64,000 nucleotides of DNA. It comes from Spirosoma sp. KCTC 42546. GTDB taxonomy: Bacteria; Bacteroidota; Bacteroidia; Cytophagales; Spirosomataceae. Within the stretch, counting starts at the first letter, position 1; every line of letters begins with the position of its first letter. Below are positions 6,518 to 26,244 of this stretch, in pieces. Position numbers and translations under genes: made by a program. The notes under the pieces were generated by a model. The model did no database searches. It was not told where the DNA came from and saw nothing but the letters and a program-made list of their open reading frames with translations. The stretch covers positions 7,172,501-7,236,500 of the forward strand of contig NZ_CP041360.1 of NCBI RefSeq assembly GCF_006965485.1, read 5' to 3'.

Positions 6518-9500
6518 ATGCAGTTTCTGATTTATGAACAAATCGACTTCTGTACTCAACTGCTCTGTCATATGCTCAAGTTATTACCTGACCCATTCAC
6601 TTTCCTCTTAGTTTTCAGTACGTTTTGGTTTCGATTTAGATTGGTTAAATGCGGCTTTCCAGGCGCATTAGCCCTATTCCTACTTTTTGGTCAGGCAATC
6701 TCAGCACAATCTACTGATACTCAACTTTCCCTGGACAAGTTGGTCGACAAGAGCAAAGCAAAGATCGGGAATGTAATGACCTATACGGTAGTACTGACGA
6801 ATACGGGTACTACCACCGCTACCAATGTTATTGTCAGAGACTCAATGTCTACCGGGCTCAACTTTGTAACAGGTTCAGCTACGGTTCCAACAGGTACTAC
6901 CTTAACACAAGGCACACCTATTCGTCTGTGGAAAGTAGCCTCTCTAGCCGCAAATCAGAGTGTAAGCCTTACCTATCAGGCGGCTGCCGATAGCTCAGGT
7001 ATTCTTTACAATCAGGCAACCATACCAGGTGATACGGCTACTGTTTGTACGACTATACCCGTTATTTTTTGTGCGGGAGATACCTACCAGATTCGTTTAA
7101 CAGCAGCTCCAGGCCGATCTTCCTATAAATGGTTCAAAAATGACATTGAGCTTACCAGTCAAACAACCAATATACTCGATATAACCGCACCAGGCACATA
7201 CAGTCTGGCCGTTGATAATGTAACAGGAAAGTGCCCGGATTTTAGTTGCTGCCCTTTTATTGTTGAAGAAGATACCCTGCCTACCTTCGGAGCTATTGCC
7301 ACTCCTGCAATGTGCCTAGGTACTGTACCTCAGGCAAACGGTCAGATTACCTTAAGCAACTTTCGTTCTGGTTACACCTATCAATACTCACTGGGCACTG
7401 ATTTCAACCCGGCGGCTTCTCTATCTGGCGCGGCCAAGGCTATTCCAGCAGGGGGCATTATTGCAGCCAATCTGGCGAACCCAGTTACAGCTCAATCGTA
7501 CACCATCCGGGTTTACAATGCCTCGGGTTGTTACACCGATGTAACAGCAGTTTTGCTACCAACAACCTGCTGTCAAGTAAGTATAGTAGCCACTCCTGGA
7601 CTCTGCACACCTCTTACCAACACCTACTCGACAACAGCTCTTATCACATTGACCAATCCGACCGCAGGAACGTTGACGATAACAGATGGCCCACAAAGCC
7701 TGACCTTTGCCACTACCGCAGGCAGCTCAACTACTTTTACGGCTATCCTTGATAATTTAATTCCAAACGGATCTAATCACACAGTCGTGGTTAGCTTACC
7801 CGGCTGCTCAACCGCTAGCACCACTTATACAGCTCCTACCTCCTGTTCCGCCGGCCCTAATTGTTCCATCAGCGCCGTAGCCACTGCTGGACTCTGTCAA
7901 ACAGCCACCAATAGTTACTCCTCAACGGTAGTCATCAGCCTGACCAATCCCACCACGGGGACACTAACGGTCACCAATGGAGCACAGACTCAAACGCTAC
8001 TGACCAACCCAACTACAACCAGTCTAACGGCAACTTTTTCAAATCTGCCCTCCGATGGAGCTAGCCATACTGTGGTCGTGAGTTTACCTGGCTGTTCGAC
8101 TACCAGCACCACCTATACGGCACCAGCATCATGTTCCATAGCCCCTTCGGGATGCAACTTGAATGCGGTAGTTACCGCTGGACTCTGCTCGACGGCCACC
8201 AATACGTACTCCGTTTCGGTGGTGGTCAACCTGAGCAATGCCCAGGCTGGCAACCTCATCGTTGACGCATTCGGAGCAGACTCCGGTAGCCAGCCCGTTT
8301 CGGCGGGCACCAGTTCGGTGACCTTCGTTTTTTCTGGCCTGATCCCCGATGGGCTTACTCGGATCGTCAAGGTGAGCCTGCCCGGTTGTGGCACCACCTC
8401 AGCGGCTTTTACAGCACCCACTGCCTGCACGGCCACTCCGGCTCCGGTTTGTAGTGTGAGTGCGGTGGCTACCGCTGGAGTCTGTCAAACGGCCACCAAC
8501 ACCTATTCCTCAAGAGTGGTCATTACCTTAGTCAATCCCACTACAGGGACACTAACGGTCACCAATGGAGCACAGACCCAAACCCTGCTGACCAGTCCAG
8601 CCACCACCAGCCTGACGGCGACCTTTGCCAACCTGCTCTCGGATGGAGCTAGCCACACCGTACTGGTGAGCCTGCCGGGTTGTTCAACCACCAGCACCAC
8701 TTACACGGCCCCTGCCTCCTGCTCGGTGGCACCGGTCTGCTCTATCAGTGCCCTTGTCACAGCGGGCTTGTGCAGCACGGCCACCAACACCTATTCAGCC
8801 TTGGTGGTGGTCAACCTGAGCAATGCCCAGGCTGGTACCCTGACGGTGAACATACCGGGAGCAACCTCCGTTAGCCAGGCCGTCTCCAGCGGCAGCAGCT
8901 CATTAACGCTTACGCTTCCAGGTCTGCTTTCAGATGGAGTATCACATACGGCGACAGTAAGTCTACCCGGTTGTGGAACCACCACCGCCACCTTCACGGC
9001 ACCTACTTCTTGTTCAGTTGCCCCCATTTGCAGCCTGAGCGCGGTAGCTACGGCTAGCCTCTGTCAAACAGCCACCAATACCTACTCGTCCAACGTAATT
9101 ATCAGTCTGACCAATCCCATCACGGGGACACTCACCATCACCAACGGAGGACAAAGTCAGACGCTGGTGACCAACCCGGCCACCACCAGCCTAACGGCGA
9201 CCTTTGCTAACCTGCCCTCGGATGGTGCTAGCCATCAGGTAGTGGTTAGCCTGCCTGGTTGCTCGACTACCAACGCTACGTACACAGCACCAGCGTCATG
9301 CTCAGTAGTGCCTTCGGGATGCAACCTAAATGCAGTAGCTACCGCTGGACTCTGTCAAACAGCCACCAATACGTACTCCGTTTCGGTGGTGGTCAACCTG
9401 AGCAATGCCCAGGCTGGCAACCTCATCGTTGACGCATTCGGAGCAGACTCCGGTAGCCAGCCCGTTTCGGCGGGCACCAGTTCGGTGACCTTCGTTTTTT

Positions 9501-12500
9501 CTGGCCTGATCCCCGATGGGCTTACTCGGATCGTCAAGGTGAGCCTGCCCGGTTGTGGCACCACCTCAGCGGCTTTTACAGCACCCACTGCCTGCACGGC
9601 CACTCCGGCTCCGGTTTGTAGTGTGAGTGCGGTGGCTACCGCTGGAGTCTGCCAAACGGTCACCAACACGTATTCCTCAAGAGTGGTCATTACCTTAGTC
9701 AACCCCACCACGGGAACGCTCACCGTTACCAATGGAGCACAGACCCAAACGTTGGCGACTAGCCCAGTCACCACCAGTTTAACAGCAGTCTTCGCTAATC
9801 TGATCTCGGATGGAGCTAGCCACACGGTGGTCGTAAGTTTATCTGGCTGTTCGACTACCAGCACCACTTACACCGCCCCTGCCTCCTGCTCGGTGGCACC
9901 GGTCTGCTCCATCAATGCCCTTGTCACAGCGGGCTTGTGCAGCACGGCCACCAACACCTATTCAGCCTTGGTGGTGGTCAACCTGACCAGTGCCCAGGCT
10001 GGTACCCTGACGGTGAACATACCGGGAGCAACCTCCGTTAGCCAGGCCGTCTCCAGTGGCAGCAGCTCATTAACGCTTACGCTTCCAGGTCTGCTTTCGG
10101 ATGGAGACAGCCATACGGCCACGGTGAGTCTACCCGGTTGTGGAACCACCACCGCCACCTTCACGGCACCTACTTCTTGTTCAGTTGCCCCCATTTGTAG
10201 TGTAAGTGCCGTAGCAACGGCGGGGCTTTGCTCGACGGCGACCAATACGTACTCCACTTCGGTAGTCATTACCTTAGCCAATCCCACCACGGGGACACTA
10301 ACGGTCACCAATGGAGCACAGACCCAAACGTTGGCGACTAGCCCAGCCACCACCAGTTTAACAGCAGTCTTCGCTAATCTGATCTCGGATGGGACTAGCC
10401 ACACCGTACTGGTGAGCCTGCCCGGTTGTTCAACCACCAGCACCACTTACACGGCACCAGCCTCCTGCTCGGTGGCACCTGTTTGCTCCATCAGTGCGGT
10501 GGCCACAGCGGGACTCTGCGCAACAGCCACTAATACGTACTCCGTTTCGGTGGTGGTCAACCTGAGCAATACCCAGGCTGGCAACCTCATCGTTGACGCA
10601 TTCGGAGCAGACTCCGGCAGCCAGCCGGTTTCGGCGGGCACCAGTTCGGTGACCTTCGTTTTTTCTGACCTGATCCCCGATGGGCTTACTCGGATCGTCA
10701 AGGTGAGCCTGCCCGGTTGTGGCACCACCTCAGCGGCTTTTACAGCACCCACTGCCTGCACGGCCACTCCGGCTCCGGTTTGTAGTGTGAGTGCGGTGGC
10801 CACCGCCGGTCTTTGCCAAACGGCCACCAACACGTATTCCTCAAAAGTGGTCATTACCTTAGTCAACCCCACCACAGGGACCCTAACGGTCACCAATGGA
10901 GCACAGACCCAAACCCTGCTGACCAGCCCTGCCACCACCAGCCTGACGGCGACCTTTGCCAACCTGCTCTCCGATGGAGCTAGCCACACCGTACTGGTGA
11001 GCCTGCCGGGTTGCTCAACCACCAGCACCACTTACACCGCCCCTGCCTCCTGCTCGGTGGCACCGGTCTGCTCTATCAGTGCGGTGGCCACAGCGGGCTT
11101 GTGCAGCACGGCCACCAACACCTATTCAGCCTTGGTGGTGGTCAACCTGAGCAATGCCCAGGCTGGTACCCTGACGGTGAACATACCGGGAGCAACCTCC
11201 GTTAGCCAGGCCGTCTCCAGCGGCAGCAGCTCAATAACGCTTACGCTTCCAGGTCTGCTTTCAGATGGAGTATCACATACGGCCACGGTGAGTCTACCCG
11301 GTTGTGGAACCACCACCGCCACCTTCACGGCCCCGGTCTCCTGCTCGATCGCACCCATTTGTAGTGTAAGTGCCGTAGCAACGGCGGGGCTTTGCTCGAC
11401 GGCGACCAATACGTACTCCACTTCGGTAGTCATTACCTTAGCCAATCCCACCACGGGGACACTAACGGTCACCAATGGAGCACAGACCCAAACGTTGGCG
11501 ACTAGCCCAGTCACCACCAGTTTAACAGCAGTCTTCGCTAGTCTGATCTCAGATGGGACTAGCCACACGATGCTGGTCAGCTTACCGGGTTGTTCAACCA
11601 CCAGCACCACCTATACGGCACCAGCCTCCTGCTCGGTGGCACCGGTCTGCTCCATCAGTGCGGTGGCCACAGCGGGACTCTGCGCAACAGCCACCAATAC
11701 GTACTCCGTTTCGGTGGTGGTCAACCTGAGCAACCCGACTGCCGGTACGTTAGGCGTGACTTCTCCAGGAGTTCCACCCAGCAGCCAGACCGTTTCGAGC
11801 GGCACCAATGAGGTAACCTTTGTGCTTGACGGCCTAATTTCAGATGGGACCAGTCATACCGTTACGATGAGTCTGCCCGGTTGTGGAACCACTACCGCAA
11901 CGTTCACCGCTCCAGTTTCCTGCTCGGTAGCACCCGTTTGTAGTATAAGTGCGGTTGCTACACCAGGAATCTGTGCCTCTGCGACCAATACCTTTACCAC
12001 AATAGCGGTCATCACCTTAACCAATCCCACCACGGGGACACTCACTGTTACGGATGGGCCAACCAGTCTGACCTTTGCTACTACCAGTGGAAGTAGTGCC
12101 TCGTTTACGGCAACGCTAGCCAATATCGTTTCTAATGGAGCCAGTCATACCCTAACGGCCACACTGTCTGGCTGTAGTTCAACAAGCACGACCTATACCG
12201 CCCCTACCTCCTGCTCGATCGCACCGGTCTGCTCCATCAGTGCAGCGGTTACTGTGGGGTTATGTGCAACGGCGACCAATACCTATTCAGCTACAGCACT
12301 CATTAGTCTGGCCAATGCTCAGGATGGAGTCGTCATTCTCAGTATTCCAGGTGTAGCCCCCATTAGCCAGACAATTACTGCTAGTACAACCTCTCTGACG
12401 GCTATCTTTACTGAACTTCTCTCCGACGGAGCTAGTCATGCTGTCACCGTTAGCCTACCTGGGTGTTCAACTACCACTGCTCTATTCACCGCACCACTTA

Positions 12501-15500
12501 GTTGTACGAGTGAAATTGGCTTAAGCATCACTGACCCTGGCGTCTGTCAGCCTGGCACCAACACGTATACTACGACAGGCGTTATCAGCCTAACCAATGC
12601 GTTGGCTGGGACAGCCCTTATTTCCGATGGAACGAACACAGTTAGTCTTTCGGTGAGTGCAGGTGCAACGTCTGTTCCCTATTCAATGAGTGGCCTCATT
12701 AGTGGAACAGGTACCCACACTGTAACGGTCAGCTATTTAGGGCAAATTTCCAGCACGACCTATACCGCCCCAGAGTCCTGTACAACAGCTCCTATCTGTT
12801 CCATCAACGCCGTAGCCACTGCTGGACTCTGTCAAACAGCGACTAATACCTACTCGTCCAATGTAGTGATCAGCCTGACCAATCCCACCACGGGGACACT
12901 AACGGTCACCAATGGAGGACAGACCCAAACCCTGCCGACCAGCCCAACTACAACCAGCCTGACGGCGACTTTTGCCAACCTGCCCTCCGATGGAGCTAGC
13001 CACACCGTACTGGTGAGCCTGCCGGGTTGTTCAACCACCAGCACCACTTACACGGCCCCTGCCTCCTGCTCGGTGGCACCGGTCTGCTCTATCAGTGCGG
13101 TGGCCACAGCGGGACTCTGCGCAACAGCCACCAACACCTATTCAGCCTTGGTGGTGGTCAACCTGGCCAATGCCCAGGCTGGTACCCTGACGGTGAACAT
13201 ACCGGGAGCAACCTCCGTTAGCCAGGCCGTTTCCAGCGGCAGCAGCTCATTAACGCTTACGCTTCCAGGTCTGCTTTCGGATGGAGTATCACATACGGCC
13301 ACGGTGAGTCTACCCGGTTGTGGAACCACCACCGCCACCTTCACGGCACCTACTTCTTGTTCAGTTGCCCCCATTTGTAGTGTAAGTGCCGTAGCAACGG
13401 CGGGGCTTTGCTCGACGGCGACCAATACGTACTCCACTTCGGTAGTCATCAGCCTGACCAATCCCACCACGGGGACGCTCACCGTTACCAACGGAGCACA
13501 GACCCAAACGTTGGCGACTAGCCCAGTCACCACCAGTTTAACAGCAGTCTTCGCTAATCTGATCTCGGATGGGACTAGCCACACCGTACTGGTGAGCCTG
13601 CCCGGTTGTTCAACCACCAGCACCACTTACACGGCCCCTGCCTCCTGCTCGGTGGCACCGGTCTGCTCCATCAGTGCGGTGGCCACAGCGGGACTCTGCG
13701 CAACAGCCACCAACACCTATTCGGCTTCAGTGGTAGTCAACCTGACTAGTGCAATTTCAGGAACACTGACGGCCAGCCTGCCAGGGGTAACTTCCATCAG
13801 TCAGGCCGTTTCCAGTGGTAGCAATTCCGTTACCCTTGTACTCGAGGGCCTGCTTTCCGATGGAGCAAGCAACAGCGTACTGGTGAGCCTGCCGGGTTGT
13901 TCAACCACCACCGCTACCTTCTCGGCCCCGGCTTCCTGCTCAATAACACCTGCTTCATGTAGCCTAAGTGCGGTAACTACGGTCGGCCTCTGTCAAACAG
14001 CCACCAATACCTATACTTCGACGGCATTGGTTCAGTTGACTAATCCACCAGCGGGTACATTAACCATTACGGATGGAACGCAAAGCAACACCTTTGTTAC
14101 TACGGCTGGGGTATCAGCAACCTTTACGGTTAGCTTTATCGACTTAGTATCCGATGGGGCGGTTCATACCATAACCGCTAGTCTGCCTGGCTGTAGCACG
14201 GCAACTACAACCTATACAGCCCCGGCTTCGTGCTCAGTAGCGCCTATTTGTTCTATTAGTGCATTGCCTCTACCCGGACTTTGTCAGTCAATCACGAACA
14301 GTTACTCGTCAACAGTTATTATCACGTTAACCAATCCCGTTACTGGTACACTCACAGTCACGGACGGAACACAGACCCAAACACTACTGACTAGTCCGGC
14401 TACCATTAATCTGACAGCAGTCTTTACCAATTTGGTCTCTGATGGAATCAGTCATACCGTGGTAGTTAGCCTGCCGGGTTGCACAACTACTAGTTCGACC
14501 TATACCGCTCCGGCTAGTTGCCAATCCGAATTGGGGCTAGCCCTGACGGATCCGGGGGTGTGTCAACCAGGCACCAATACCTACAACACCACGGGTGTCA
14601 TTAGTCTGACCAATGCGGTAGCTGGTCTGGCTACGCTGGTAGATGGTACCAGTAGCCTCACCGTCGTAGTCAGTAATGGAGATACGTCTATTCCCTATTC
14701 GATGAGTGGGCTCATGAGTGGAACAGGTACACATACCGTGACGGTCAGCTATCTTGGGCAAACTGCCAGCACGACCTACACGGCTCCGACTTCCTGCTCT
14801 GTAGAGCCGGTATGTAGTGTAAGTGCGGTGGCCACCGCTGGGATCTGCTCAACAGCGGCCAACACCTATTCCGCTTCAGTGGTAGTCAACCTGACTAATG
14901 CAATTTCAGGAACACTGACCGTTAGTGCCCCTGGAACAGCCCCCAGCAGTCAGACCGTTTCGAGTGGCATTAGTTCCCTAACCATTATCCTTGCTGACCT
15001 GATTTCGGATGGAAACAGCCACACGGCCACAGTCAGTTTGCCCGGTTGTGGAACCACCACAGCTACATTCACGGCCCCGGCCTCCTGTTCAGTAGCCCCC
15101 GTTTGCAGCCTGAGTGCGGTAGCTAGTGCCGGCCTCTGTCAAACAGCCACTAATAGTTATTCGTCGACGGTAGTCATTACATTAACCAATCCCACGGCCG
15201 GAACAGTAACAGTGAGTGATGGGGGACAAAGCCAAACTCTGCTGACCAGCCCAGCCACCACCAGCCTGACAGCCATTTTCGCCAATCTGCTCTCGGATGG
15301 AGTCACTCATATGGTAGAAGTCACTTTACCAGGTTGTTCAACCATTAGTGCCAGCTATAGCGCGCCTGTTAGTTGTACGAGTGAGATTAGTCTAAGCATC
15401 ACAGACCCAGGAGTGTGTCAACCAGGTACCAATACCTACAACACCACAGGTGTCATTAGTCTGACCAATGCGGTAGCTGGCCTGGCTCTCATTTCCGATG

Positions 15501-16033
15501 GAGCCAATACGATTACTCTTTCGGTGAGTGCAGGGGCGACATCTATTCCCTATTCAATGAGTGGGCTCATGAGTGGAACGGGGAACCACACTGTAACGGT
15601 CAGCTATCTAGGTCAGATTGCCAGCACGACCTACACGGCTCCGACTTCCTGCCCTCTGGAGCCGGTATGTAGCGTGAGTGCGGTGGCTACGGCAGTCCCA
15701 GTGACGTGCCTGGGTAATAGTCCCCAGGCAAACGGTAAAATTGTAGTAAGTGGGTTCACAACTGGGGATACGTATCAATATTCAGATGGTTCTATCTTCA
15801 ATCCTGCCGTCGTCCTATCTGGTGCGCCCCAGGTCATTCCAGCAGATGGAGTCATTGTAAGCAACCTGTTTAACCCCGTTGCAGCTCAAACTTACACGGT
15901 ACGAATCTTTTCTACGTGTTACAAAGATGTGACTGTCACGTTGCTACCTACAGTCTGCAATTGCCCGGAAACCAGTTGTGTGCCATTAGTTATCAAACAG
16001 ACAAAAGGAGCTAGACGAGCGGGTAATCCATAA
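6518..16033 (+). CDS. Giant secreted Cys-rich repeat protein (3171 aa)
   Basis: Paralogue of the preceding gene. The start is uncertain: ATG 6518 and ATG 6572 are both possible. A hydrophobic stretch ending ALFLLFGQAISAQ is the likely signal peptide. Order: DUF11 domain (about 6720-7060), a Cys-containing module (about 7080-7560), about 28 modules of about 97 aa (three shortened CQPGTNTY types), then a second copy of the Cys module and the tail VPLVIKQTKGARR. Its N-terminal DUF11 plus module matches the C-terminal end of the preceding protein, so the pair looks like a permuted duplication. Three modules form tandem 388-aa superunits that are nearly identical at DNA level, a sign of recent expansion and a place where assemblies can collapse. 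Probable role: cell-surface or matrix adhesin; partner unknown. Confidence 0.85.
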   Translation: MQFLIYEQIDFCTQLLCHMLKLLPDPFTFLLVFSTFWFRFRLVKCGFPGALALFLLFGQAISAQSTDTQLSLDKLVDKSKAKIGNVMTYTVVLTNTGTTTATNVIVRDSMSTGLNFVTGSATVPTGTTLTQGTPIRLWKVASLAANQSVSLTYQAAADSSGILYNQATIPGDTATVCTTIPVIFCAGDTYQIRLTAAPGRSSYKWFKNDIELTSQTTNILDITAPGTYSLAVDNVTGKCPDFSCCPFIVEEDTLPTFGAIATPAMCLGTVPQANGQITLSNFRSGYTYQYSLGTDFNPAASLSGAAKAIPAGGIIAANLANPVTAQSYTIRVYNASGCYTDVTAVLLPTTCCQVSIVATPGLCTPLTNTYSTTALITLTNPTAGTLTITDGPQSLTFATTAGSSTTFTAILDNLIPNGSNHTVVVSLPGCSTASTTYTAPTSCSAGPNCSISAVATAGLCQTATNSYSSTVVISLTNPTTGTLTVTNGAQTQTLLTNPTTTSLTATFSNLPSDGASHTVVVSLPGCSTTSTTYTAPASCSIAPSGCNLNAVVTAGLCSTATNTYSVSVVVNLSNAQAGNLIVDAFGADSGSQPVSAGTSSVTFVFSGLIPDGLTRIVKVSLPGCGTTSAAFTAPTACTATPAPVCSVSAVATAGVCQTATNTYSSRVVITLVNPTTGTLTVTNGAQTQTLLTSPATTSLTATFANLLSDGASHTVLVSLPGCSTTSTTYTAPASCSVAPVCSISALVTAGLCSTATNTYSALVVVNLSNAQAGTLTVNIPGATSVSQAVSSGSSSLTLTLPGLLSDGVSHTATVSLPGCGTTTATFTAPTSCSVAPICSLSAVATASLCQTATNTYSSNVIISLTNPITGTLTITNGGQSQTLVTNPATTSLTATFANLPSDGASHQVVVSLPGCSTTNATYTAPASCSVVPSGCNLNAVATAGLCQTATNTYSVSVVVNLSNAQAGNLIVDAFGADSGSQPVSAGTSSVTFVFSGLIPDGLTRIVKVSLPGCGTTSAAFTAPTACTATPAPVCSVSAVATAGVCQTVTNTYSSRVVITLVNPTTGTLTVTNGAQTQTLATSPVTTSLTAVFANLISDGASHTVVVSLSGCSTTSTTYTAPASCSVAPVCSINALVTAGLCSTATNTYSALVVVNLTSAQAGTLTVNIPGATSVSQAVSSGSSSLTLTLPGLLSDGDSHTATVSLPGCGTTTATFTAPTSCSVAPICSVSAVATAGLCSTATNTYSTSVVITLANPTTGTLTVTNGAQTQTLATSPATTSLTAVFANLISDGTSHTVLVSLPGCSTTSTTYTAPASCSVAPVCSISAVATAGLCATATNTYSVSVVVNLSNTQAGNLIVDAFGADSGSQPVSAGTSSVTFVFSDLIPDGLTRIVKVSLPGCGTTSAAFTAPTACTATPAPVCSVSAVATAGLCQTATNTYSSKVVITLVNPTTGTLTVTNGAQTQTLLTSPATTSLTATFANLLSDGASHTVLVSLPGCSTTSTTYTAPASCSVAPVCSISAVATAGLCSTATNTYSALVVVNLSNAQAGTLTVNIPGATSVSQAVSSGSSSITLTLPGLLSDGVSHTATVSLPGCGTTTATFTAPVSCSIAPICSVSAVATAGLCSTATNTYSTSVVITLANPTTGTLTVTNGAQTQTLATSPVTTSLTAVFASLISDGTSHTMLVSLPGCSTTSTTYTAPASCSVAPVCSISAVATAGLCATATNTYSVSVVVNLSNPTAGTLGVTSPGVPPSSQTVSSGTNEVTFVLDGLISDGTSHTVTMSLPGCGTTTATFTAPVSCSVAPVCSISAVATPGICASATNTFTTIAVITLTNPTTGTLTVTDGPTSLTFATTSGSSASFTATLANIVSNGASHTLTATLSGCSSTSTTYTAPTSCSIAPVCSISAAVTVGLCATATNTYSATALISLANAQDGVVILSIPGVAPISQTITASTTSLTAIFTELLSDGASHAVTVSLPGCSTTTALFTAPLSCTSEIGLSITDPGVCQPGTNTYTTTGVISLTNALAGTALISDGTNTVSLSVSAGATSVPYSMSGLISGTGTHTVTVSYLGQISSTTYTAPESCTTAPICSINAVATAGLCQTATNTYSSNVVISLTNPTTGTLTVTNGGQTQTLPTSPTTTSLTATFANLPSDGASHTVLVSLPGCSTTSTTYTAPASCSVAPVCSISAVATAGLCATATNTYSALVVVNLANAQAGTLTVNIPGATSVSQAVSSGSSSLTLTLPGLLSDGVSHTATVSLPGCGTTTATFTAPTSCSVAPICSVSAVATAGLCSTATNTYSTSVVISLTNPTTGTLTVTNGAQTQTLATSPVTTSLTAVFANLISDGTSHTVLVSLPGCSTTSTTYTAPASCSVAPVCSISAVATAGLCATATNTYSASVVVNLTSAISGTLTASLPGVTSISQAVSSGSNSVTLVLEGLLSDGASNSVLVSLPGCSTTTATFSAPASCSITPASCSLSAVTTVGLCQTATNTYTSTALVQLTNPPAGTLTITDGTQSNTFVTTAGVSATFTVSFIDLVSDGAVHTITASLPGCSTATTTYTAPASCSVAPICSISALPLPGLCQSITNSYSSTVIITLTNPVTGTLTVTDGTQTQTLLTSPATINLTAVFTNLVSDGISHTVVVSLPGCTTTSSTYTAPASCQSELGLALTDPGVCQPGTNTYNTTGVISLTNAVAGLATLVDGTSSLTVVVSNGDTSIPYSMSGLMSGTGTHTVTVSYLGQTASTTYTAPTSCSVEPVCSVSAVATAGICSTAANTYSASVVVNLTNAISGTLTVSAPGTAPSSQTVSSGISSLTIILADLISDGNSHTATVSLPGCGTTTATFTAPASCSVAPVCSLSAVASAGLCQTATNSYSSTVVITLTNPTAGTVTVSDGGQSQTLLTSPATTSLTAIFANLLSDGVTHMVEVTLPGCSTISASYSAPVSCTSEISLSITDPGVCQPGTNTYNTTGVISLTNAVAGLALISDGANTITLSVSAGATSIPYSMSGLMSGTGNHTVTVSYLGQIASTTYTAPTSCPLEPVCSVSAVATAVPVTCLGNSPQANGKIVVSGFTTGDTYQYSDGSIFNPAVVLSGAPQVIPADGVIVSNLFNPVAAQTYTVRIFSTCYKDVTVTLLPTVCNCPETSCVPLVIKQTKGARRAGNP
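8153..11647 (+). repeat. Three tandem higher-order units of about 1164 bp in coding sequence
   Basis: Units begin at the Cys codons at 8153, 9320 and 10484; the next equivalent codon is 11648. Spacings are 1167, 1164 and 1164 bp. Each unit has four modules in the same order: a NLIVDAFGADSGSQ type, a VITLVNPTTGTL type, a TVNIPGATSVSQ type and a second NPTTGTL-like type. Long stretches are identical between units. Partial copies recur at about 12790-13680. Confidence 0.9.
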
Positions 16034-18625: not shown

Positions 18626-19555
18626 ATGAAATCACTACTCGTACTTACCTGGCTTACCATCTGTGCCGCATTCGGTGGTGCCGCATTCGGGCAAAGTCTG
18701 CAATTCTCATTTGAAGGCGATTCATTAACGATGCCTTTTATCCGGGATAGTCTGCGGGGAATTTCGGGTCTTGAGATTGTACCCGCCACAGGCGAGTGGC
18801 ATTTTGTAAGCGACCGGGGCTGGCATTTCGTTTTTGCCAACATCCGGTCCATCCGGGATTTAGGCGATTCATCACACCTGAAACTAGCCCAGAAAAATCC
18901 GTTCTGGTTTGAAAGTGTTCGCTACGATGCCCGAACCAGCACCTATTTCTGGACGGATGAACACGAATTTGTCACGTCGGTACTATATGGCAAGTCAGTT
19001 CGTGATAGTGCCAGCCAGGTTTTGTTGAAAATACCGGTACCTGCACCTAACAAAGGGCTTGAAGGATTGGCAGTCACCTCGTCGGGAGCCTTGTGGGTGG
19101 TGCCTGAAGCCGGTTGGGAAGGCGAAACACTCATGAATCAAGACACGATTACATTCTTTCGTTACCCCAATCCGCTGGCTGCTGATCCTGTTGTTGAGCG
19201 ATTTGCGTATCCAATCAACCGCTGCGCCTTTGCGCAGGGCGAAGAGCGAGTGGGCGGCATTTCGGAAATACTAGCCGTAGATGCCCAGCGCATACTAGTG
19301 CTGGAACGATGCTACGATGCCAGCCAAAAACGAGTTACAGCAAACTTATACGTAGCAACTCCGAATGAGAAAACCCATACCCTAATCAAAGAACTAGCCT
19401 TCGATTTTAATCGTCAATTTCCTGGCGACATCTGCAATCTCGAAGCCATGGCCTGGGCCGATGAGCAACACCAAACGCTAGTCCTTATGGCCGATGATAA
19501 TTTCCGCCGGAACAAAACCTTACGAAATCAGGTGATTGTTTTACGAAGAAAGTAA
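18626..19555 (+). CDS. Secreted phytase-like esterase domain protein
   Basis: 309-aa protein with a clear signal peptide (LVLTWLTICAAFGGAAFGQ) and the repeated landmarks of the 'esterase-like activity of phytase' beta-propeller family: ISGLEIVPATGEWHFVSDRG, NKGLEGLAVTSSGALWVVPE and NLEAMAWADEQ...LMADDNF. It probably acts in the periplasm or outside the cell on an unknown phosphate ester or related substrate. It lies alone on the plus strand between sufD and the converging minus-strand island, so it is not obviously part of either. Family assignment is good, substrate unknown. Confidence 0.85.
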   Translation: MKSLLVLTWLTICAAFGGAAFGQSLQFSFEGDSLTMPFIRDSLRGISGLEIVPATGEWHFVSDRGWHFVFANIRSIRDLGDSSHLKLAQKNPFWFESVRYDARTSTYFWTDEHEFVTSVLYGKSVRDSASQVLLKIPVPAPNKGLEGLAVTSSGALWVVPEAGWEGETLMNQDTITFFRYPNPLAADPVVERFAYPINRCAFAQGEERVGGISEILAVDAQRILVLERCYDASQKRVTANLYVATPNEKTHTLIKELAFDFNRQFPGDICNLEAMAWADEQHQTLVLMADDNFRRNKTLRNQVIVLRRK

Positions 19556-19596: not shown

Positions 19597-20541
19597 TTAC
19601 TTAATCGATGAAAAATAACGAAATACGGAAGGTAATTGAGATGCTCTATTACCCATTAAACTATTCTCATTATAAGAAGCTACGATTTGATGAGGGCCTG
19701 GAATATTGTCCATATATATTTTCACAACATACCCTTTACGGATTAACAATATAGTTGGCAGAGTGTGAGTAACTGAGTGTAAAGATTCTTTAGTAACAGC
19801 AATTGTGCGAAAATTAGGAGTCAATTTCTTTCGGTACTCACGAAGTGATTCTGCCGACACCGTGTGGGGATACATCCCTACCACTTCGTCAACTGACTCT
19901 GTTTCTGTATAAGTATTAATAGTTGGAGTTACCTGTTGGCAGTGTGGACAAGCTGGACTGAAAACAAAAAACAATTGGTCTTTATTAAGCGAAATGAAAG
20001 GCCTCATAAATGTATTGTTCAAATTCATTCCCTCATGTACGCTTATTTCAACATAAGTGTTTTTCATTTCAAAACCAGTCATTACGAATGTAATGATACC
20101 CAGTATAACTGCAAAGAAAGTCTTCAAAATAGCTTTACTAGTTTGGCTTTCGGGTTGCCGCCATATACAGAAAGACAAGGCAATCATAAGTATATTACGA
20201 AATAGAGCTACAGTTGGCGACATGCTAATTACATCCCCAAAACAACCACAATCGCTTATATTCAGAAAAATATAACCGAAGGCAAAGATGAGCGTGAGTG
20301 TAATGAGTAACCCCAACGATAGTAGCCCGGCTCGTTGGCGGTACACCTCAAACAATAGCCCAATGCCAAGTGTAATTTCCAACCCAATAATAAATGGGGC
20401 AAACATTCTTAGCCGAGGGATGCCATAGCGGGCAATTACATCGGCAAAGCCATTAATATCCATCGCTTTGCTAATACCGGAAGCAAGGTATAGCAAGCCC
20501 AGAATAACCGAAGCTATTCGGGTTAATACAATAGCATTCAT
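19597..20541 (-). CDS. MauE/DoxX-like membrane protein fused to thioredoxin-like domain
   Basis: 314 aa. Residues 1-125 form four hydrophobic helices of the MauE/DoxX redox family, with the Cys pair DCGCFGD at 98-103. A fifth helix (about 140-155) leads to a thioredoxin-like domain with CPHC at 198-201. Such proteins pass electrons across the membrane for disulfide chemistry, much as VKOR-Trx fusions do. It is the last gene of the minus-strand island, 65 bases after the CarboxypepD_reg-like gene. Two of the three small peptides of the island contain Cys pairs, so a role in forming or keeping disulfides in the peptide product is plausible, but this is inference. The base composition is AT-rich like the rest of the island. 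Confidence 0.85.
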   Translation of the reverse strand: MNAIVLTRIASVILGLLYLASGISKAMDINGFADVIARYGIPRLRMFAPFIIGLEITLGIGLLFEVYRQRAGLLSLGLLITLTLIFAFGYIFLNISDCGCFGDVISMSPTVALFRNILMIALSFCIWRQPESQTSKAILKTFFAVILGIITFVMTGFEMKNTYVEISVHEGMNLNNTFMRPFISLNKDQLFFVFSPACPHCQQVTPTINTYTETESVDEVVGMYPHTVSAESLREYRKKLTPNFRTIAVTKESLHSVTHTLPTILLIRKGYVVKIYMDNIPGPHQIVASYNENSLMGNRASQLPSVFRYFSSIK

Positions 20542-20606
20542 AACTGTAATGATTTTTATGTAACTCCGAATAAGAAATTACTCAGTAGAAACAGGAAGTG
20601 TATCGT

Positions 20607-21827
20607 TTACTGTGGCTCAAATTTCATGTTTCCCATTACGCCCTGTTGCTCAAAGGCTTTAATAGTACTTTCTTCTAAAGGCGTTCGTCGTACTACCGAA
20701 TTATTTCGCCAAAACTCAGCGTCATATTTCGCGCCTTGAATAAGCTTTAAATCTTCACGGTGAATATTTATTGGCTTGTATTTACCTCTAGTAGCTGCAT
20801 TACTGAAGTCATTAATCAATAAAAATGCACTTACCCAATCTTTTCGCTTTTCGCCAGTCGCCCTAATAAGTTGATCAAACTCAACGGTTACTCGAATACT
20901 GTTAAAAACTGTGGTATTTGCTTGAGATGTATAATCCACATCAACTGTATAAACATAATTCTCAGTCAGTGTTTTGGCATTGTTTATTACTGCTCCCATA
21001 CTATTTGGGATCGTCCCGTGCACCTTCACTAATTTATAATTATTCATATTGATATAAACTTTACCCGAAAAGGCTGGGTTTGTATAGTCTTCTCGAATAT
21101 GGCAATCTAATTCAGCTATTTTATCACCACTCGGTTGTGTTAGTACATCCGTTACTTGAACGTCGTAATAATCAGCTACGTCTGGCCGGACTGGGAAAAG
21201 AACTGCATTTTCTGTTGGTTTTGACTGGCTAATTGATTTTTGCGCTAATACTAAGTAAGAAAAATTAGTAAAGCTTAAATACATTTTTTTATCATCAGAA
21301 GGTAATTTCGCATATCGAGCATTACCAATCTGTACACCTTCTATTTTATTACTTGACAATGCAATATTATATGTAACTTCTTGAATTTCAGTAAACTGAG
21401 ATCCATTTTTAGTTAATTGACGGTAAAAAGCATTTCCATAAATTATACTTCTTCCAGCATTTACTTGAGTAAACGCTTGCTTAATTAATTTATAACCAGC
21501 ATTGCTCACCGTTACTGGGTCTAGTTCATGAGCAGCGGGTTTCAGATGTACCGTGTAATTATCCGTTGGCTCAACAATAGTAATTGTATCGGATTGATAA
21601 CTGATGTGAGATACAACTAATTGAACAGGAAAAGATGGAATAGGGAATCCATATTCTCCATTTTCATTACTCAATGTACCTTTTTTTATTTTTGGACAGT
21701 ATATATTAGCGAAAGGAATTCTTTGGTTTGTAATCAGGTCTACTACTGAGCCATTAATTTGCTGGCTATAACTATAAGTTGCGACAAATAAATCAATAAT
21801 TAATAACCACCCTTGTATCTTCCTCAT
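20607..21827 (-). CDS. CarboxypepD_reg-like secreted protein
   Basis: 406 aa with an N-terminal signal peptide (LLIIDLFVATYSYSQ). It starts with a carboxypeptidase-regulatory-like beta-sandwich (QINGSVVDLITNQRIPFANIYC, GTLSNENGEYGFPIP, residues about 22-100), as in the plug extension of TonB-dependent receptors. It has no TonB plug or barrel. The rest, about 110-400, is beta-rich and resembles the unnamed C-terminal part of DUF5686-type proteins. It acts in the periplasm or outer membrane. Placed directly after the three small peptides and before the MauE-Trx gene on the same strand, it could serve export, processing or self-protection for the peptide system. That role is inference. Confidence 0.75.
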   Translation of the reverse strand: MRKIQGWLLIIDLFVATYSYSQQINGSVVDLITNQRIPFANIYCPKIKKGTLSNENGEYGFPIPSFPVQLVVSHISYQSDTITIVEPTDNYTVHLKPAAHELDPVTVSNAGYKLIKQAFTQVNAGRSIIYGNAFYRQLTKNGSQFTEIQEVTYNIALSSNKIEGVQIGNARYAKLPSDDKKMYLSFTNFSYLVLAQKSISQSKPTENAVLFPVRPDVADYYDVQVTDVLTQPSGDKIAELDCHIREDYTNPAFSGKVYINMNNYKLVKVHGTIPNSMGAVINNAKTLTENYVYTVDVDYTSQANTTVFNSIRVTVEFDQLIRATGEKRKDWVSAFLLINDFSNAATRGKYKPINIHREDLKLIQGAKYDAEFWRNNSVVRRTPLEESTIKAFEQQGVMGNMKFEPQ

Positions 21828-21859
21828 ATCATTTTTAACTTATTTCAGGAGCCTTTCGT

Positions 21860-21898
21860 AATTTACTGGGGTATATCAATTAGACACCCCAGTAAATT
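21860..21898 (-). promoter_or_regulatory. Perfect hairpin between peptide gene 1 and downstream gene
   Basis: aatttactggggt / accccagtaaatt, a perfect 13-bp stem with a 13-base loop. On the transcribed minus strand no T-run follows, so it is more likely an attenuating or mRNA-processing hairpin than a full terminator. It would allow more peptide mRNA than downstream mRNA. Confidence 0.55.
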
Positions 21899-21929
21899 AA
21901 GCATCAGTCTGTTACTATTCCCGGCTATA

Positions 21930-22088
21930 TTAAAATGTACATTTTACTGTAGCCGAGCAAGTGCCATCTGAATTAGCTGTAGCCGACACTTCCCATTTGT
22001 TTTCAAGACGCTCTTCAAGTTCTTCTACTTGGAATAAGGCTACTAGTTCACCTTCAGACTGTGCGTCGAATAGATTAACAGTTTGCAT
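21930..22088 (-). CDS. Small peptide 1 of putative RiPP-like precursor family
   Basis: 52-aa peptide not recognised by length-limited gene calling. It begins MQTVNLFDAQSEGELVALFQ and continues with VEELEERLENKWEVSA. The block FQVEELEERLENKWEV is shared with the next two peptides. The tail after it (about 18 residues, two Cys, ending VKCTF) is unlike theirs. A conserved amphipathic N-terminal part with a variable C-terminal part is the pattern of leader and core in ribosomally made, modified peptides. There is no signal peptide and no GG cleavage site. I know no named family for it with certainty. Confidence 0.8.
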   Translation of the reverse strand: MQTVNLFDAQSEGELVALFQVEELEERLENKWEVSATANSDGTCSATVKCTF

Positions 22089-22211
22089 AAAAATAAAATT
22101 AAGAAAGTTTAAGGGCTGTTTAGGTTAACCGACTACTACTGCCCCGTTAGGTAGCAGACGGATGACTTTAGTAGTAACCTTAATTTGTGTTACCTATTAT
22201 ATTTTTGGGTA
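22089..22211 (-). other. Spacer between peptide genes 1 and 2
   Basis: 123 bases. In the frame of peptide 2, after its stop, an open stretch with no start codon (22127 upward) could be read as KVTTKVIRLLPNGAVVVG, possibly a leftover of an older peptide end. Partial pairing between actactactgcc and agtagtaacc is visible. No gene is called. Confidence 0.3.
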
Positions 22212-22373
22212 TCAATCAACAACTACTGTAACCTCCATAGGGGTATCTTCTTGGGGTCCATTATTGACCACATACCATTTATTTTCCAGCCGTTCTTCCA
22301 GTTCTTGCACTTGAAATTGAGACACCAGCTTGTTATCTGGTTGTAAAGGGTCATTTATAATCTTCATGGTCAT
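22212..22373 (-). CDS. Small peptide 2 of putative RiPP-like precursor family
   Basis: 53 aa from ATG at 22373 (a second in-frame ATG lies two codons later). Its conserved block is FQVQELEERLENKWYV at residues 20-35. The tail, NNGPQEDTPMEVTVVVD, has no Cys and is acidic, so the presumed core chemistry differs from peptides 1 and 3. It begins 13 bases after peptide 3 ends, which argues for co-transcription with the M50 protease and peptide 3. Confidence 0.8.
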   Translation of the reverse strand: MTMKIINDPLQPDNKLVSQFQVQELEERLENKWYVVNNGPQEDTPMEVTVVVD

Positions 22374-22386
22374 TAAAAATTAATTA

Positions 22387-22536
22387 TTAGTTATTAATTT
22401 GGGAGTGAGGTCCTTTTGTGTTGCACTCGTCGCAACCTTCTATCTCCCATCGATTTTCAAGCCGCTCTTCGAGTGCTTCCAGTTGAAATAAAAATATAAT
22501 CTTACTTTCCGGATTCCTCACTAATTGTTTTTTCAT
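22387..22536 (-). CDS. Small peptide 3 of putative RiPP-like precursor family
   Basis: 49 aa. Conserved block FQLEALEERLENRWEI at residues 17-32, followed by a short tail with a CDEC pair (EGCDECNTKGPHSQINN). The N-terminus is basic (MKKQLVRNPESK), unlike the other two. It starts 45 bases downstream of the M50 protease gene. The three peptides differ at the DNA level but keep the LEERLEN[KR]W motif exactly, which points to selection on the protein sequence. Confidence 0.8.
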   Translation of the reverse strand: MKKQLVRNPESKIIFLFQLEALEERLENRWEIEGCDECNTKGPHSQINN

Positions 22537-22581
22537 ACACATCAACAGTTAAAAGTAGATAGACTAATATAAAAAAAATCT

Positions 22582-23823
22582 TCACAATCTATTTTCTGTA
22601 ATTGATTCCTCACTCACGTAATTTTTTCTAATATTTTTTAAAAGAATATGCTTATTACTTTGCCATTGGCTAATAATAAACTTTAGAAAAACCACGTAGA
22701 ATAGCAGTACAGTTATATATTGGCGGCTTAAATCCTGCCACGACAATTGAGCGTTTACAGCTTTTGCAAACAATTGCCAAACGATGACTGGGAATTGAAA
22801 CACGATTTCACGATACATAATCAAGGTGTAAATCATTATGGCGACCCACAGCAGCGTATTAATAAAGCCATATATAAACAAGCCAATCTTTTGCCATGAT
22901 AGCTTGCGTAATTGCGTTTTCGGTTGCTGCCAAAAAGTCATCAGGGTGACCCTGCGAATACTTATCCTGAACATTTCATTCGCCTTTTGCAGCAAATTAG
23001 GCGTATTAGTCAAATCAGATAGTACCCAATAGCCATCAAACCGAACGAAAGGATTAAACTCCCAGATGACCATTGTGAATACAGAGAGTGCCACCGCCAG
23101 ACACGTTTCGTTACCGGTCATCAAATACACAACCGCTAAAGCGCTTGCGTAAAGTATCTCATTGAAAATGCCAGCTAAGTTTGCAATTACTCGGTGTGAT
23201 CTATCAACCAACCATACCTCTGTTATGTCGGCGTACATGACGGGCATAATGAAATAAAACCCAAATCCTACCCCGCCATGCTTTAAACCATACTTAGCGC
23301 AGGCTCCAATGTGACCCAATTCGTGAACCAGCATTGTTGCATACAACAGGCTGAAGTATAAAACATAATCTGTTTGAGCAATTATCTGATTTGCATCACT
23401 CACAAAGTACACCATCGGCACAACCAACGAGCATAACAGAAAAGCGATCCAAAACACGTTGAGTGCATACACCCACTGAAGCGGCTTTGACAATACTCCG
23501 ACTACACAAGCCGGTAAAAGCTCTACCTTTAGTTTCAGATAGTTGTTTTTCAGGCTGGGTTTAACGGGTGTTTGATCTTCGATCAGCACGTTATACCCCC
23601 CTAACGTTTGAGCAACTATGTCATTAAATTCCTGCTGATTAAGAGTTAAACCGAATATCTGGTTAAACCGCCTGACAGCTTCTAACCAATCTGACGACTC
23701 CCGCAAAATCTGGTATAGTTGATAGGTAGCCTGATTAATCAAAAAGTTACGTCCTTTGGCTGAGTGAATAACCCAGTTATTTTCGTCGAAGACGTGAACG
23801 CTGGTATCGTTTGCGATAAGCAT
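22582..23823 (-). CDS. M50-family membrane metalloprotease with PqqD/RRE-like N-terminus
   Basis: 413-aa membrane protein of the 'putative peptide zinc metalloprotease' type (relatives include YydH in epipeptide clusters). Residues 1-80 look like a PqqD-type winged helix (NNWVIHSAKGRNFLINQATYQ and a following helix), the fold of RiPP recognition elements. Hydrophobic helices follow, with the zinc motif HELGH at 167-171 and the third-ligand motif NPFVRFDGYW near 257-266, then two or three further helices. It probably binds the leader of the small peptides and cleaves them at the membrane. Its start overlaps the end of the preceding gene by 85 bases, suggesting translational coupling. The RRE assignment is from sequence pattern only. 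Confidence 0.85.
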   Translation of the reverse strand: MLIANDTSVHVFDENNWVIHSAKGRNFLINQATYQLYQILRESSDWLEAVRRFNQIFGLTLNQQEFNDIVAQTLGGYNVLIEDQTPVKPSLKNNYLKLKVELLPACVVGVLSKPLQWVYALNVFWIAFLLCSLVVPMVYFVSDANQIIAQTDYVLYFSLLYATMLVHELGHIGACAKYGLKHGGVGFGFYFIMPVMYADITEVWLVDRSHRVIANLAGIFNEILYASALAVVYLMTGNETCLAVALSVFTMVIWEFNPFVRFDGYWVLSDLTNTPNLLQKANEMFRISIRRVTLMTFWQQPKTQLRKLSWQKIGLFIYGFINTLLWVAIMIYTLIMYREIVFQFPVIVWQLFAKAVNAQLSWQDLSRQYITVLLFYVVFLKFIISQWQSNKHILLKNIRKNYVSEESITENRL

Positions 23824-25715
23824 GGATATTGCTTAGAGATAGTCAATATATTAAAGACTGTACTAGTCGTAAAAACCCGGTTGTGATCATCGACTAGTGT
23901 GTTTACACCAAAAGAGCTTTTTCGCCATCGCTTTACGGTTTCGGGCTGTAATACATTTGTTGCGGGTATTCGCAAAATATGGCTGGTTTGCCAACTACCA
24001 TCCTTAGTTTGATTCATAAGCAGCCAGTTAATTCCACATTGTATAACATTCTGATACAACTTTACATCAATAGCAATTAGTGCTTTTAGGGCAATTGCTG
24101 TATAAAATGCATTGGGTTGATTATCAATAGGATTCACCCAATAGCCATTTGGGTGTTGATTTTGAGCAATCCGGTAACCTAATTGAGGAACATAAGGTAA
24201 ATGAGACGTTCGTTTAGCAAAAGCTAATGCCGTAAATGACAGAGTATATAGGTCACTTGTCCACCAATATGAGTGTAAGCCTCCTCCTACTAAGCGTCTG
24301 GTTAAATAGCGACACGTTGACTCATATACGTTATCAAGGCTGGGTATGTCGGAAAGTATATAAGCGGCAGCAGCACTTACACAATCATGGGCAGAAAGCC
24401 AGCCAGCTATGGTAGTGTGTTTAGTCAATCCTAATCGACCCCGTAATCCATCCTCATCCTGATATGTGGCCCATCCTCCTTTTTCATTTCTGAACAACAG
24501 CCATGAATCCAGAAGTTGATCAGGTATTGACCTGGTAAGCTGCCAATGCAATCCTACCAAAAAATTAGTCGAATCCGCATCCTGTAAGACGCTACCATTG
24601 AATGATCCTTTTGCAGAGAGTTTCTCTAATACTGTTTGAATTAATTGTTTGTCAACGCCACATTCCGCCAGCATACGTCCTGTGTATGCCGTAATCCAGG
24701 TATCACCAGAACCAGCACTAGTAATAAAATCTGACCATGTTCCGCTATCAATGACTGAAGTTAAATATATGAATGCGCTATCTGCGGCTTCACTAACACT
24801 TAGCCTAGGCATTATGACTGAACTTTTAGCTGATTTAATTCGCGTTTTTTTGATAAGGAGATCAATTTCATTCGCAAAATTCTTCGCCAATTCTACTTGT
24901 GTTATCAAATATTCTTCTAATGATGTAAGACCAATTTCTTTTATACTATTGATGGCCTCCTCAAAATGACTAATAGCTTTATTGATTATCGTAGCACCTA
25001 CATTTGACAGGTATAAATATTTGTGCATAAGCTTCTCATCGGCTAATTGCACACCTTGTTCTGTCAAATATTCCTGAACTAACTGATGAGCAAAAGTTCG
25101 TTGTCCGCTAATAAGATCAGCCTCAAAGTCATCAATATCATCAAGATATTGAAAGGCGATATGAATGTGTCGTAAGCATCTTTCAAGCTGATTATCGAAA
25201 GGTGTACACCCATTTAGCGTTACGAGTGCCTGTATTGCGGCATAACAAACTGCCGATTTACCCGCGGCAAGTTGCTCAAAAGTGGCTTCTGAGTACAATT
25301 GCCCAGATTTGGCAAAATGCTTTTCTGTTAAGACAGCTTTTCCATACTCATTTTTGTACTTATTAAATTTAAGCCAAAATGATGAATTGGTTGGAAATAG
25401 TAAAGCTAATTCTCTGATAGCAGCTTCATGTATCTCTACTATACAGTTTAGTTTCTGAGCTTGGGCAATTTTACTTTGCTCTACTACCGTATCTACAATA
25501 GCATCAAACTCTAATAAAAAGCGAAAATACAAATAACCCGCGAACGAGATCTGTTCCTTTTCTGGCTCTAAAATTTTGTCAAAAACAGGCGCGACATAAT
25601 CAATCAAATTAAGATAAAATATATGTTTCTGTTGTGCACCTTCCTGCATCAAGCGCCCCATAGTTAAATCATTTACTGGCAGCCTGCTAATTCTATCACT
25701 GAAGTTACTCCTCAT
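23739..25715 (-). CDS. Fusion of class I prenyl-synthase-like and squalene-cyclase-like toroid domains
   Basis: 658 aa. Residues about 30-290 look like a class I isoprenoid synthase: FLLEFDAIVD (D71, D75) in the place of the first Asp-rich motif, KSAVCYAA near 153, and FQYLDDIDDFEAD...GQRTF (D192-D196) in the place of the second. Residues about 305-630 look like the alpha/alpha toroid of squalene/terpene cyclases and protein prenyltransferases, with repeats such as KGGWATYQDEDG, HPNGYWVNP and KDGSWQT. QDADST at 378-383 matches the class II cyclase motif DxDDT except that the last Asp is Ser; the usual general acid, the middle Asp, is kept. The order (alpha domain first) is the reverse of plant bifunctional terpene synthases. 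It lies between the LuxR-type and M50 genes. A terpenoid or prenylated-peptide product is inferred. Confidence 0.8.
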   Translation of the reverse strand: MRSNFSDRISRLPVNDLTMGRLMQEGAQQKHIFYLNLIDYVAPVFDKILEPEKEQISFAGYLYFRFLLEFDAIVDTVVEQSKIAQAQKLNCIVEIHEAAIRELALLFPTNSSFWLKFNKYKNEYGKAVLTEKHFAKSGQLYSEATFEQLAAGKSAVCYAAIQALVTLNGCTPFDNQLERCLRHIHIAFQYLDDIDDFEADLISGQRTFAHQLVQEYLTEQGVQLADEKLMHKYLYLSNVGATIINKAISHFEEAINSIKEIGLTSLEEYLITQVELAKNFANEIDLLIKKTRIKSAKSSVIMPRLSVSEAADSAFIYLTSVIDSGTWSDFITSAGSGDTWITAYTGRMLAECGVDKQLIQTVLEKLSAKGSFNGSVLQDADSTNFLVGLHWQLTRSIPDQLLDSWLLFRNEKGGWATYQDEDGLRGRLGLTKHTTIAGWLSAHDCVSAAAAYILSDIPSLDNVYESTCRYLTRRLVGGGLHSYWWTSDLYTLSFTALAFAKRTSHLPYVPQLGYRIAQNQHPNGYWVNPIDNQPNAFYTAIALKALIAIDVKLYQNVIQCGINWLLMNQTKDGSWQTSHILRIPATNVLQPETVKRWRKSSFGVNTLVDDHNRVFTTSTVFNILTISKQYPCLSQTIPAFTSSTKITGLFTQPKDVTF

Positions 25716-25810
25716 AACTTTTAGAGTTCTTAATCAAGAAACAATCGCGCCCAAATTTTCGCTACCAGCGACATACTTACCAGCAAATTTATAGGCCTTG
25801 ATCGAGTCAG

Positions 25811-25855
25811 AATATGGAGTAAACTCCTCAATTTTTGAGGAGTTTACTCCATATT
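25811..25855. promoter_or_regulatory. Perfect 21-bp hairpin between LuxR-type gene and fusion-enzyme gene
   Basis: aatatggagtaaactcctcaa / ttgaggagtttactccatatt with a 3-base loop. A T-run follows on the plus strand, so as a terminator it faces away from the island. On the minus strand it sits in the leader of the biosynthetic operon and could act as an attenuator, an operator or a stabilising 5' hairpin. Confidence 0.6.
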
Positions 25856-25923
25856 TTTTCAAATGTTTAGCTTGACAAATTGCATCTTTGGCTTTCCCTT
25901 TTATAGCCTAGATGGCCATATAC

Positions 25924-26244
25924 TTATTGCTTATATTCACAAAAAGGGGATTTAACAACCAGCACCTCATACAATTTCTGTAATTCATGCTGATGTTTTC
26001 GAGCAAACTGAGCCAGCTTTCGAGCACCTTGCAGGTTAAGTTTGCTGCCAATGCGGTTTCTGTAGTTTACAACGCTCTTTGTACTCAAGTAAAGTAGGTC
26101 AGCGATTTCGGCATTGGTCAGGTCTTCGACAACATAGAGCAACACCTGCCACTCTCTGGGTGTAAGCTCAAAAAGGGCCTGGTTTGGCAGGGCGATTTTA
26201 GGCGGTGCCTCGTTACGGTTGGGAGTAAAATGTGGTCGCTCCAT
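25924..26244 (-). CDS. LuxR/GerE-type helix-turn-helix protein
   Basis: 106 aa from ATG at 26244 (a TTG at 26250 is also open). It contains one GerE-type HTH: LTPREWQVLLYVVEDLTNAEIADLLYLSTKSVVNYRNRIGSKL (cited here by its key residues LTPRE, TNAEIA and KSVVNYRNRI). There is no receiver or sensor domain, so it is a stand-alone DNA-binding module. It is the first gene of the AT-rich minus-strand island and is the natural candidate to control the peptide operon 208 bases downstream. A partner sensor is not visible in the window. Confidence 0.85.
   Translation of the reverse strand: MERPHFTPNRNEAPPKIALPNQALFELTPREWQVLLYVVEDLTNAEIADLLYLSTKSVVNYRNRIGSKLNLQGARKLAQFARKHQHELQKLYEVLVVKSPFCEYKQ

Follow-up and report, generated by a model that had tools for sequence, protein, structure and literature searches.

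We analyze here a stretch of 64,000 nucleotides from Spirosoma sp. KCTC 42546 (the window; G000:C1:7172501-7236500, within a single-contig genome of 8.66 Mb), and in it a gene cassette that is probably a system for a ribosomally synthesized and post-translationally modified peptide (RiPP). Going by comparison across genomes and by predicted structures, the cassette would make terpene-lipidated peptides: one domain of a fusion enzyme (P) would prenylate a Trp, the other (C) would cyclize the chain, and an M50 peptidase would remove the leader. The whole cassette lies on the minus strand, from 26244 to 19597, in the order regulator, fusion enzyme, M50 protein, three short peptides, CarboxypepD_reg-like protein, and MauE-thioredoxin protein (MauE-Trx). 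A first-pass annotation, made from the letters alone, had reported this gene set, and the strand, order, small gaps and 85-base overlap that it gave are all there. It also knew of no earlier peptide system organized around a terpene-type fusion enzyme, and in this it was wrong. ChrPC and NctPC are such enzymes, according to the available part of a review (PMC13290415), and because that review describes them we assign the cassette to an existing kind. What this analysis adds is a rule about Trp that extends across Bacteroidota loci, a partner protease with a predicted RiPP recognition element (RRE), a peptide family that no NCBIfam model covers, and a location among suf-like genes.

Co-occurrence of the fusion enzyme, the peptides and the M50 protease

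Among 222 genomes of the family, the fusion has a match in 11, the peptides in 13, and both in 10, a pairing that on these sequences is more than chance. One of the 10 (G108) has just an 80-aa fragment of the fusion, and the fusion without a peptide match (G038) sits where its contig ends. The first-pass annotation had looked to peptides widespread without the enzymes as evidence against itself, and in the family genomes we do not see them. The matches lacking a fusion are a decayed operon with a peptide, a CarboxypepD_reg gene in two pieces and a MauE piece (L128 in G191), a 33-aa remnant (L129 in G163), and a stretch inside a 652-aa open reading frame (ORF; G098).

At larger distances, the fusion query has matches of any kind in 17 of 390 genomes sampled from the order and in 26 of 395 sampled from the phylum, many of them single-domain or weak. 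The peptide profile matches 7 of 380 order-sample genomes: three in which the fusion is present (G000, G423 and G441), one match inside a 258-aa ORF (G235), one that contains stops (G318), and the family matches G163 and G098 again. The fusion genome G532 is not among these seven and may fall outside the 380-genome sample. In G318, the weak peptide match with stops adjoins a relative of the M50 protein (L131, 7903-9042; hidden Markov model E 5e-58), with no fusion in that stretch.

With the window included and near-identical copies collapsed, there are 25 distinct fusions. The M50 protein is at the same locus in 24 of them, as a piece at the contig end in L085 and three genes away in L062; in the one locus that lacks it, L070, a stop interrupts the fusion. 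Precursor-like ORFs are also found in 24 of the 25 loci, with the exception of L085, which ends at a contig border. This is the co-occurrence in other genomes that the first-pass annotation had proposed looking for. All three P-only loci (L077, L079 and L083) have the M50 protein too, and none was seen with the weak P relatives L086 and L087, the P fragment L065 or the truncated fusion L102. The five cyclase-only loci (L078, L080-L082 and L084) have neither an M50 gene nor a leader-like ORF in the stretches fetched. L078, L080, L081 and L082 are free-standing MstE-like cyclases, and that of L078 adjoins a divergent gene resembling polyprenyl synthases, which scores under the Pfam cut-off. Such cyclases perhaps serve separate terpenoid pathways.

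A scan of named contigs gave 15 loci: Spirosoma sordidisoli, an Emticicia metagenome-assembled genome (MAG), Hymenobacter metallicola, Belliella calami, four Allomuricauda/Muricauda, one Flagellimonas, an uncultured Croceitalea, a Saprospiraceae MAG, Chryseobacterium sp. ISL-6, and three other MAGs. L092 and L097 are in MAGs labelled Ignavibacteriae and Zambryskibacteria. The label of the first looks like a binning error, because the enzyme of L092 is the same as that from Allomuricauda (L069).

Trp in all 35 precursor cores counted

The three window peptides are paralogous (11 invariant columns in their alignment) and share a leader that ends in LEERLE, with the Trp of the core three residues beyond. 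All three (3/3) are thus Trp-bearing precursors beside the enzyme, as would be expected for a ChrPC-type system. When peptides are chosen by the leader motif alone, we have 35 cores from 23 loci, and Trp is the sole amino acid found in all 35 of them! The next are Gly and Asn, with 30 each. Taking one core per locus, Trp is present in 23 of 23, whereas 20,000 composition shuffles, uncorrected for kinship, averaged 15.0 and reached 20 at most. In 20 of the 23 loci, Trp is 3-8 residues past the R-x-E of the leader, and in the remaining three (L068, L072 and L100) it is no more than two residues from the C-terminus. An alignment of 16 of the peptides, when compared with the NCBIfam models, gives no match at E 0.01.

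The C-terminal Trp coincides with a change in the P domain. Residue 189 is not Gln in 3 of the 25 distinct fusions, and these are the same three loci (3/3). Q189 by itself was not used as a mark of Trp prenyltransferases, because both ordinary synthases of the genome carry FQxxDD.

Could the acceptor be something other than Trp? One alternative is that the peptide is prenylated and the chain stays uncyclized, or that a Cys or some other residue accepts it, with the C domain serving as a binding scaffold. Many cores are Cys-rich, and one observation weighs directly against the Trp rule: the P-only locus L083 has a precursor without Trp and with 10 Cys in its core. At this locus (in G751; 627-830 and 21-263), a P-only enzyme and an M50 protein accompany Cys-rich leader-like peptides, and the acceptor is possibly a residue other than Trp. 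On the other hand, Cys is found in 26 of the 35 cores and Trp in all of them, D379-x-D381 of the C domain is invariant in the alignment, and the C domain of ChrPC cyclizes, according to the available part of the review (PMC13290415). We regard this alternative as unlikely, and favor prenylation of Trp followed by cyclization.

The two domains of the fusion enzyme

By structure prediction, the fusion has a trans-isoprenyl-diphosphate-synthase (trans-IDS) fold followed by an MstE-like class II cyclase, on one chain as in ChrPC. The Chryseobacterium fusion (L100) is a relative, with 24% identity in the best segment. In fold comparisons, the P half resembles true synthases and the C half class II cyclases, and the matches listed include domains from PvCPS, a bifunctional enzyme of fungi. 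The second aspartate-rich motif (SARM), DDxxD, is intact in 12 of 12 aligned fusions, so that the ComQ-type signature (first aspartate-rich motif, FARM, present and SARM lost) is not what we find, and 4 of the 25 distinct fusions have a canonical FARM. These fold resemblances, the intact SARM and the canonical FARMs would also suit a synthase of free terpenoids, like the bifunctional copalyl diphosphate synthases, for which the peptides would be unrelated neighbors. We find that very unlikely: the M50 protein and the peptides each accompany the fusion at all loci except one, the five cyclase-only relatives lack both partners, the other 21 fusions deviate from DDxxD and have the spacing of PalQ, and the top fold match for the cyclase half is MstE, which was solved with prenyl dihydroxybenzoates. 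Ord1 was not seen among the 50 fold matches listed, an absence that carries no weight.

The M50 protease and its probable leader-binding domain

The M50 protein has HExxH and an NPxxDG-type motif in a predicted site-2-protease fold, and HExxH and NP..DG are invariant across the M50 alignment. It matches the NCBIfam models daptide_HExxH (NF041824; E 1.5e-29, 103.3 bits) and YydH/LiaK (NF058609; E 3.6e-22, 79.2 bits), in both cases under the curated cut-offs, which are 300 and 225 bits. The N-terminal domain is predicted to have the three strands and three helices of an RRE, resembling PqqD/TbiB1; the PqqD model TIGR03859 is matched by one of 17 M50-family members.

Site-2 proteases often cleave regulators, and no cut site was identified in the precursors, which would fit a protease that cuts a regulator or confers immunity in this operon. 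We consider that quite unlikely for a protein with an RRE/PqqD-like N-terminus, with family matches to daptide and YydH/LiaK maturation proteases, and with a place in the three P-only loci too. A leader peptidase is the role that we retain. Overall, comparison and structure prediction support three proposals of the first-pass annotation, namely that the peptides are precursors, that the M50 protein recognizes and cuts them, and that the fusion adds or forms an isoprenoid.

Cassette features and accessory genes

Table 1. Coordinates of the cassette features in the window; domain folds and functions are predicted.
Feature	Coordinates	Strand	Match
LuxR-type (GerE) stand-alone DNA-binding protein, probable regulator	25924-26244	-	GerE E 5.1e-14
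Perfect 21-bp inverted repeat with two GGAGTNNACTCC palindromes, between regulator and fusion gene	25811-25855	.	sequence
PC fusion enzyme, probable peptide prenyltransferase (P) and class II terpene cyclase (C), 658 aa	23739-25715	-	
P domain, residues 1-298, trans-IDS fold (predicted)	24822-25715	-	
P-domain D71/D75	25491-25505	-	
P-domain Q189-x-x-DDxxDxxxD	25116-25151	-	
C domain, residues 303-633, monodomain class II cyclase fold (predicted)	23817-24809	-	
C-domain D379-x-D381	24573-24581	-	
M50 (site-2-protease-like) peptidase, N-terminal RRE/PqqD-like domain, 413 aa	22582-23823	-	
M50 HELGH motif	23311-23325	-	
RRE/PqqD-like domain of the M50 protein, residues 1-82, probably leader-binding	23578-23823	-	
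Precursor peptide 1, 52 aa, core with NRW and a CDEC pair	22387-22545	-	
Precursor peptide 2, 53 aa, core with NKW, without Cys	22212-22373	-	
Precursor peptide 3, 52 aa, core with NKW and two Cys	21930-22088	-	
CarboxypepD_reg-like protein with a C-terminal part that has no assigned domain, accessory	20607-21827	-	PF13715 E 4.9e-15
MauE-like membrane protein with weak thioredoxin-like domain, accessory	19597-20541	-	PF07291 E 2.4e-19; thioredoxin 0.019

The overlap of the fusion and M50 genes is 85 bases (23739-23823). In L057, where the fusion is 73% identical, the ORF has 634 aa and runs just one base into the start of the M50 gene. The overlap in the window is genuine and arises from a C-terminal tail on its fusion, whose last 20 residues are among the lowest-confidence parts of the predicted structure. 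For the regulator, which has a homologue at the matching position in L057, an ATG start at 26244 is a better fit than the TTG at 26250 given by the ORF list.

CarboxypepD_reg homologues are close to the fusion in several relatives' loci. A homologue of MauE-Trx (phmmer, window protein as query) is present in 5 of the 25 fusion loci, and in all five the cores have at least two Cys. The proposal of the first-pass annotation that this protein handles Cys pairs remains a guess, and we reject MauE as a marker of such pairs, because ten other loci (L067, the L069/L091 group, L070, L071, L073, L074, L075, L076, L095 and L098) have cores with at least two Cys and no homologue. Other loci add radical S-adenosylmethionine (SAM) genes (L062, L064, L068 and L100), a P450 gene (L100 as well), a TonB-plug receptor with DUF4249 (L062) and a thioredoxin gene (L074). 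An anti-phage defense reading was dropped, as four cassette proteins matched 0 families in PADLOC. Pfam matches to TED_complement and FliX were judged to be by-products of helical folds.

Inverted repeat and genomic setting

The palindrome GGAGTNNACTCC has 8 copies in the genome, and the pair in the window are the only two close together. In L057 the core of the inverted repeat is unchanged and the outer arms are altered on both sides with pairing kept. From its sequence, the repeat is a possible operator or leader hairpin. We prefer this to a terminator of the regulator gene because the repeat, read along the operon, lacks a run of T after it.

The cassette has a phytase-like gene (18626-19555) on one side and a sufS-like gene (26699) on the other; we assign the suf names tentatively, from the sequences. 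Between 16287 and 28374, the cassette interrupts a suf-like order: sufC, sufD, phytase-like gene, cassette, sufS, sufE. We searched 12 other genomes of the genus and read 11 other loci at this spot. Three of the 11 (L141-L143) have the phytase-like gene and sufS about 100 bases apart with no cassette between them, four (L146-L149) go directly from sufD to sufS, two (L144 and L145) have the phytase-like gene and no sufS in the remaining 266 and 390 bases, and two (L139 and L140) have neither neighbor within 1.5 kb. Because the spot varies in this way, the cassette looks inserted among suf-like genes; the intergenic sequences are too diverged to fix the exact borders. Elsewhere in the window (6518-16033) there is a 3171-aa protein of many similar Cys/Thr/Ser-rich repeats.

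A proposed mechanism

In the mechanism that we propose, the operon would make three peptides that share a leader and differ in their cores, the Trp lying three residues beyond LEERLE. The P domain, like ComQ, PalQ and the ChrPC P domain, would take a prenyl chain, probably C15 or C20, off its diphosphate and attach it to the core Trp. The acid of the C-domain DxD would then protonate and cyclize the attached chain, in the manner of MstE acting on a prenylated aromatic acid. The M50 protein would hold the leader in its RRE domain, cut at the membrane, and perhaps pass the product out. CarboxypepD_reg and MauE-Trx would act in the envelope, and MauE-Trx may there handle the Cys pairs that two of the three cores carry. 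Finally, the LuxR-type protein would control the operon, with the conserved double palindrome as a possible site.

A more speculative, and doubtful, extension is a Gram-negative counterpart of the ComX pheromone: peptides with polycyclic terpenes, freed and exported by a single RRE-M50 protein without an ABC transporter, as a signal or toxin under a LuxR-type switch, with P-only relatives that have Trp-less precursors (L083) prenylating a non-Trp residue.

Terpene-ring peptides are known from few characterized enzymes, NctPC and ChrPC being those named in the available part of the review (PMC13290415). The family offers a mineable set in Spirosoma, Emticicia, Hymenobacter, Belliella, Allomuricauda and Chryseobacterium, with a simple search rule: a leader motif around VEELE-x-RLE, a core Trp, and a P domain beside an RRE-M50 protease. 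Its members also vary naturally in where the Trp lies, some of the enzymes are naturally P-only, and some loci carry extra radical SAM or P450 genes. The window set is compact and there are cultured strains in the genus; therefore the chemistry is directly testable.

Comparison with known systems

In the literature searched, we recognized no description of the leader motif, the RRE-M50 pairing or a Spirosoma cluster; most subscription papers were outside that scope, and Hubrich 2024 and 2026 may cover some of this. One of the closest systems is ChrPC, attributed to Hubrich et al., Chem 2024, 10, 3224. As far as the available part of the review describes it (PMC13290415), its trans-IDS-like P domain modifies an internal Trp with C10-C20 donors and its C domain cyclizes the chain, that is, the same domain kinds, ribosomal-peptide Trp target and cyclization as we propose for the window fusion. 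On the window side of this comparison, in which ChrPC is known by its description, there are three precursors, each with its Trp at position +3 from the leader motif. NctPC shares the fusion logic, the MstE-like C domain and the Trp target, and it transfers C20 to Trp and then cyclizes it; its P domain is an ABBA-type alpha-beta barrel, whereas that of the window is an all-alpha trans-IDS (same review, available part).

ComQ/ComX and PalQ/PalX also rely on a trans-IDS-like prenyltransferase of peptide Trp, and the D-x-x-x-D spacing of the window FARM is as in PalQ (PMC10853753). In the available text of that source, ComQ and PalQ are described as stand-alone prenyltransferases with a cyclase domain unmentioned, in contrast to the window fusion; ComQ lacks the SARM, which the window fusion keeps; and PalX has an NHLP leader and a C-terminal Trp, unlike the window peptides. 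MstE resembles the window C domain in fold and in its DxD-S/T-T motif, although it is a monodomain enzyme.

The M50 protein, like EpeP/YydH and the daptide proteases, is an intramembrane HExxH protease of RiPP clusters, and EpeP is thought to cut and export (PMC10885120, available part). In contrast to those systems, the window cassette is without an ABC transporter gene, and its M50 protein, which scores under their curated cut-offs, adjoins a terpene fusion enzyme.
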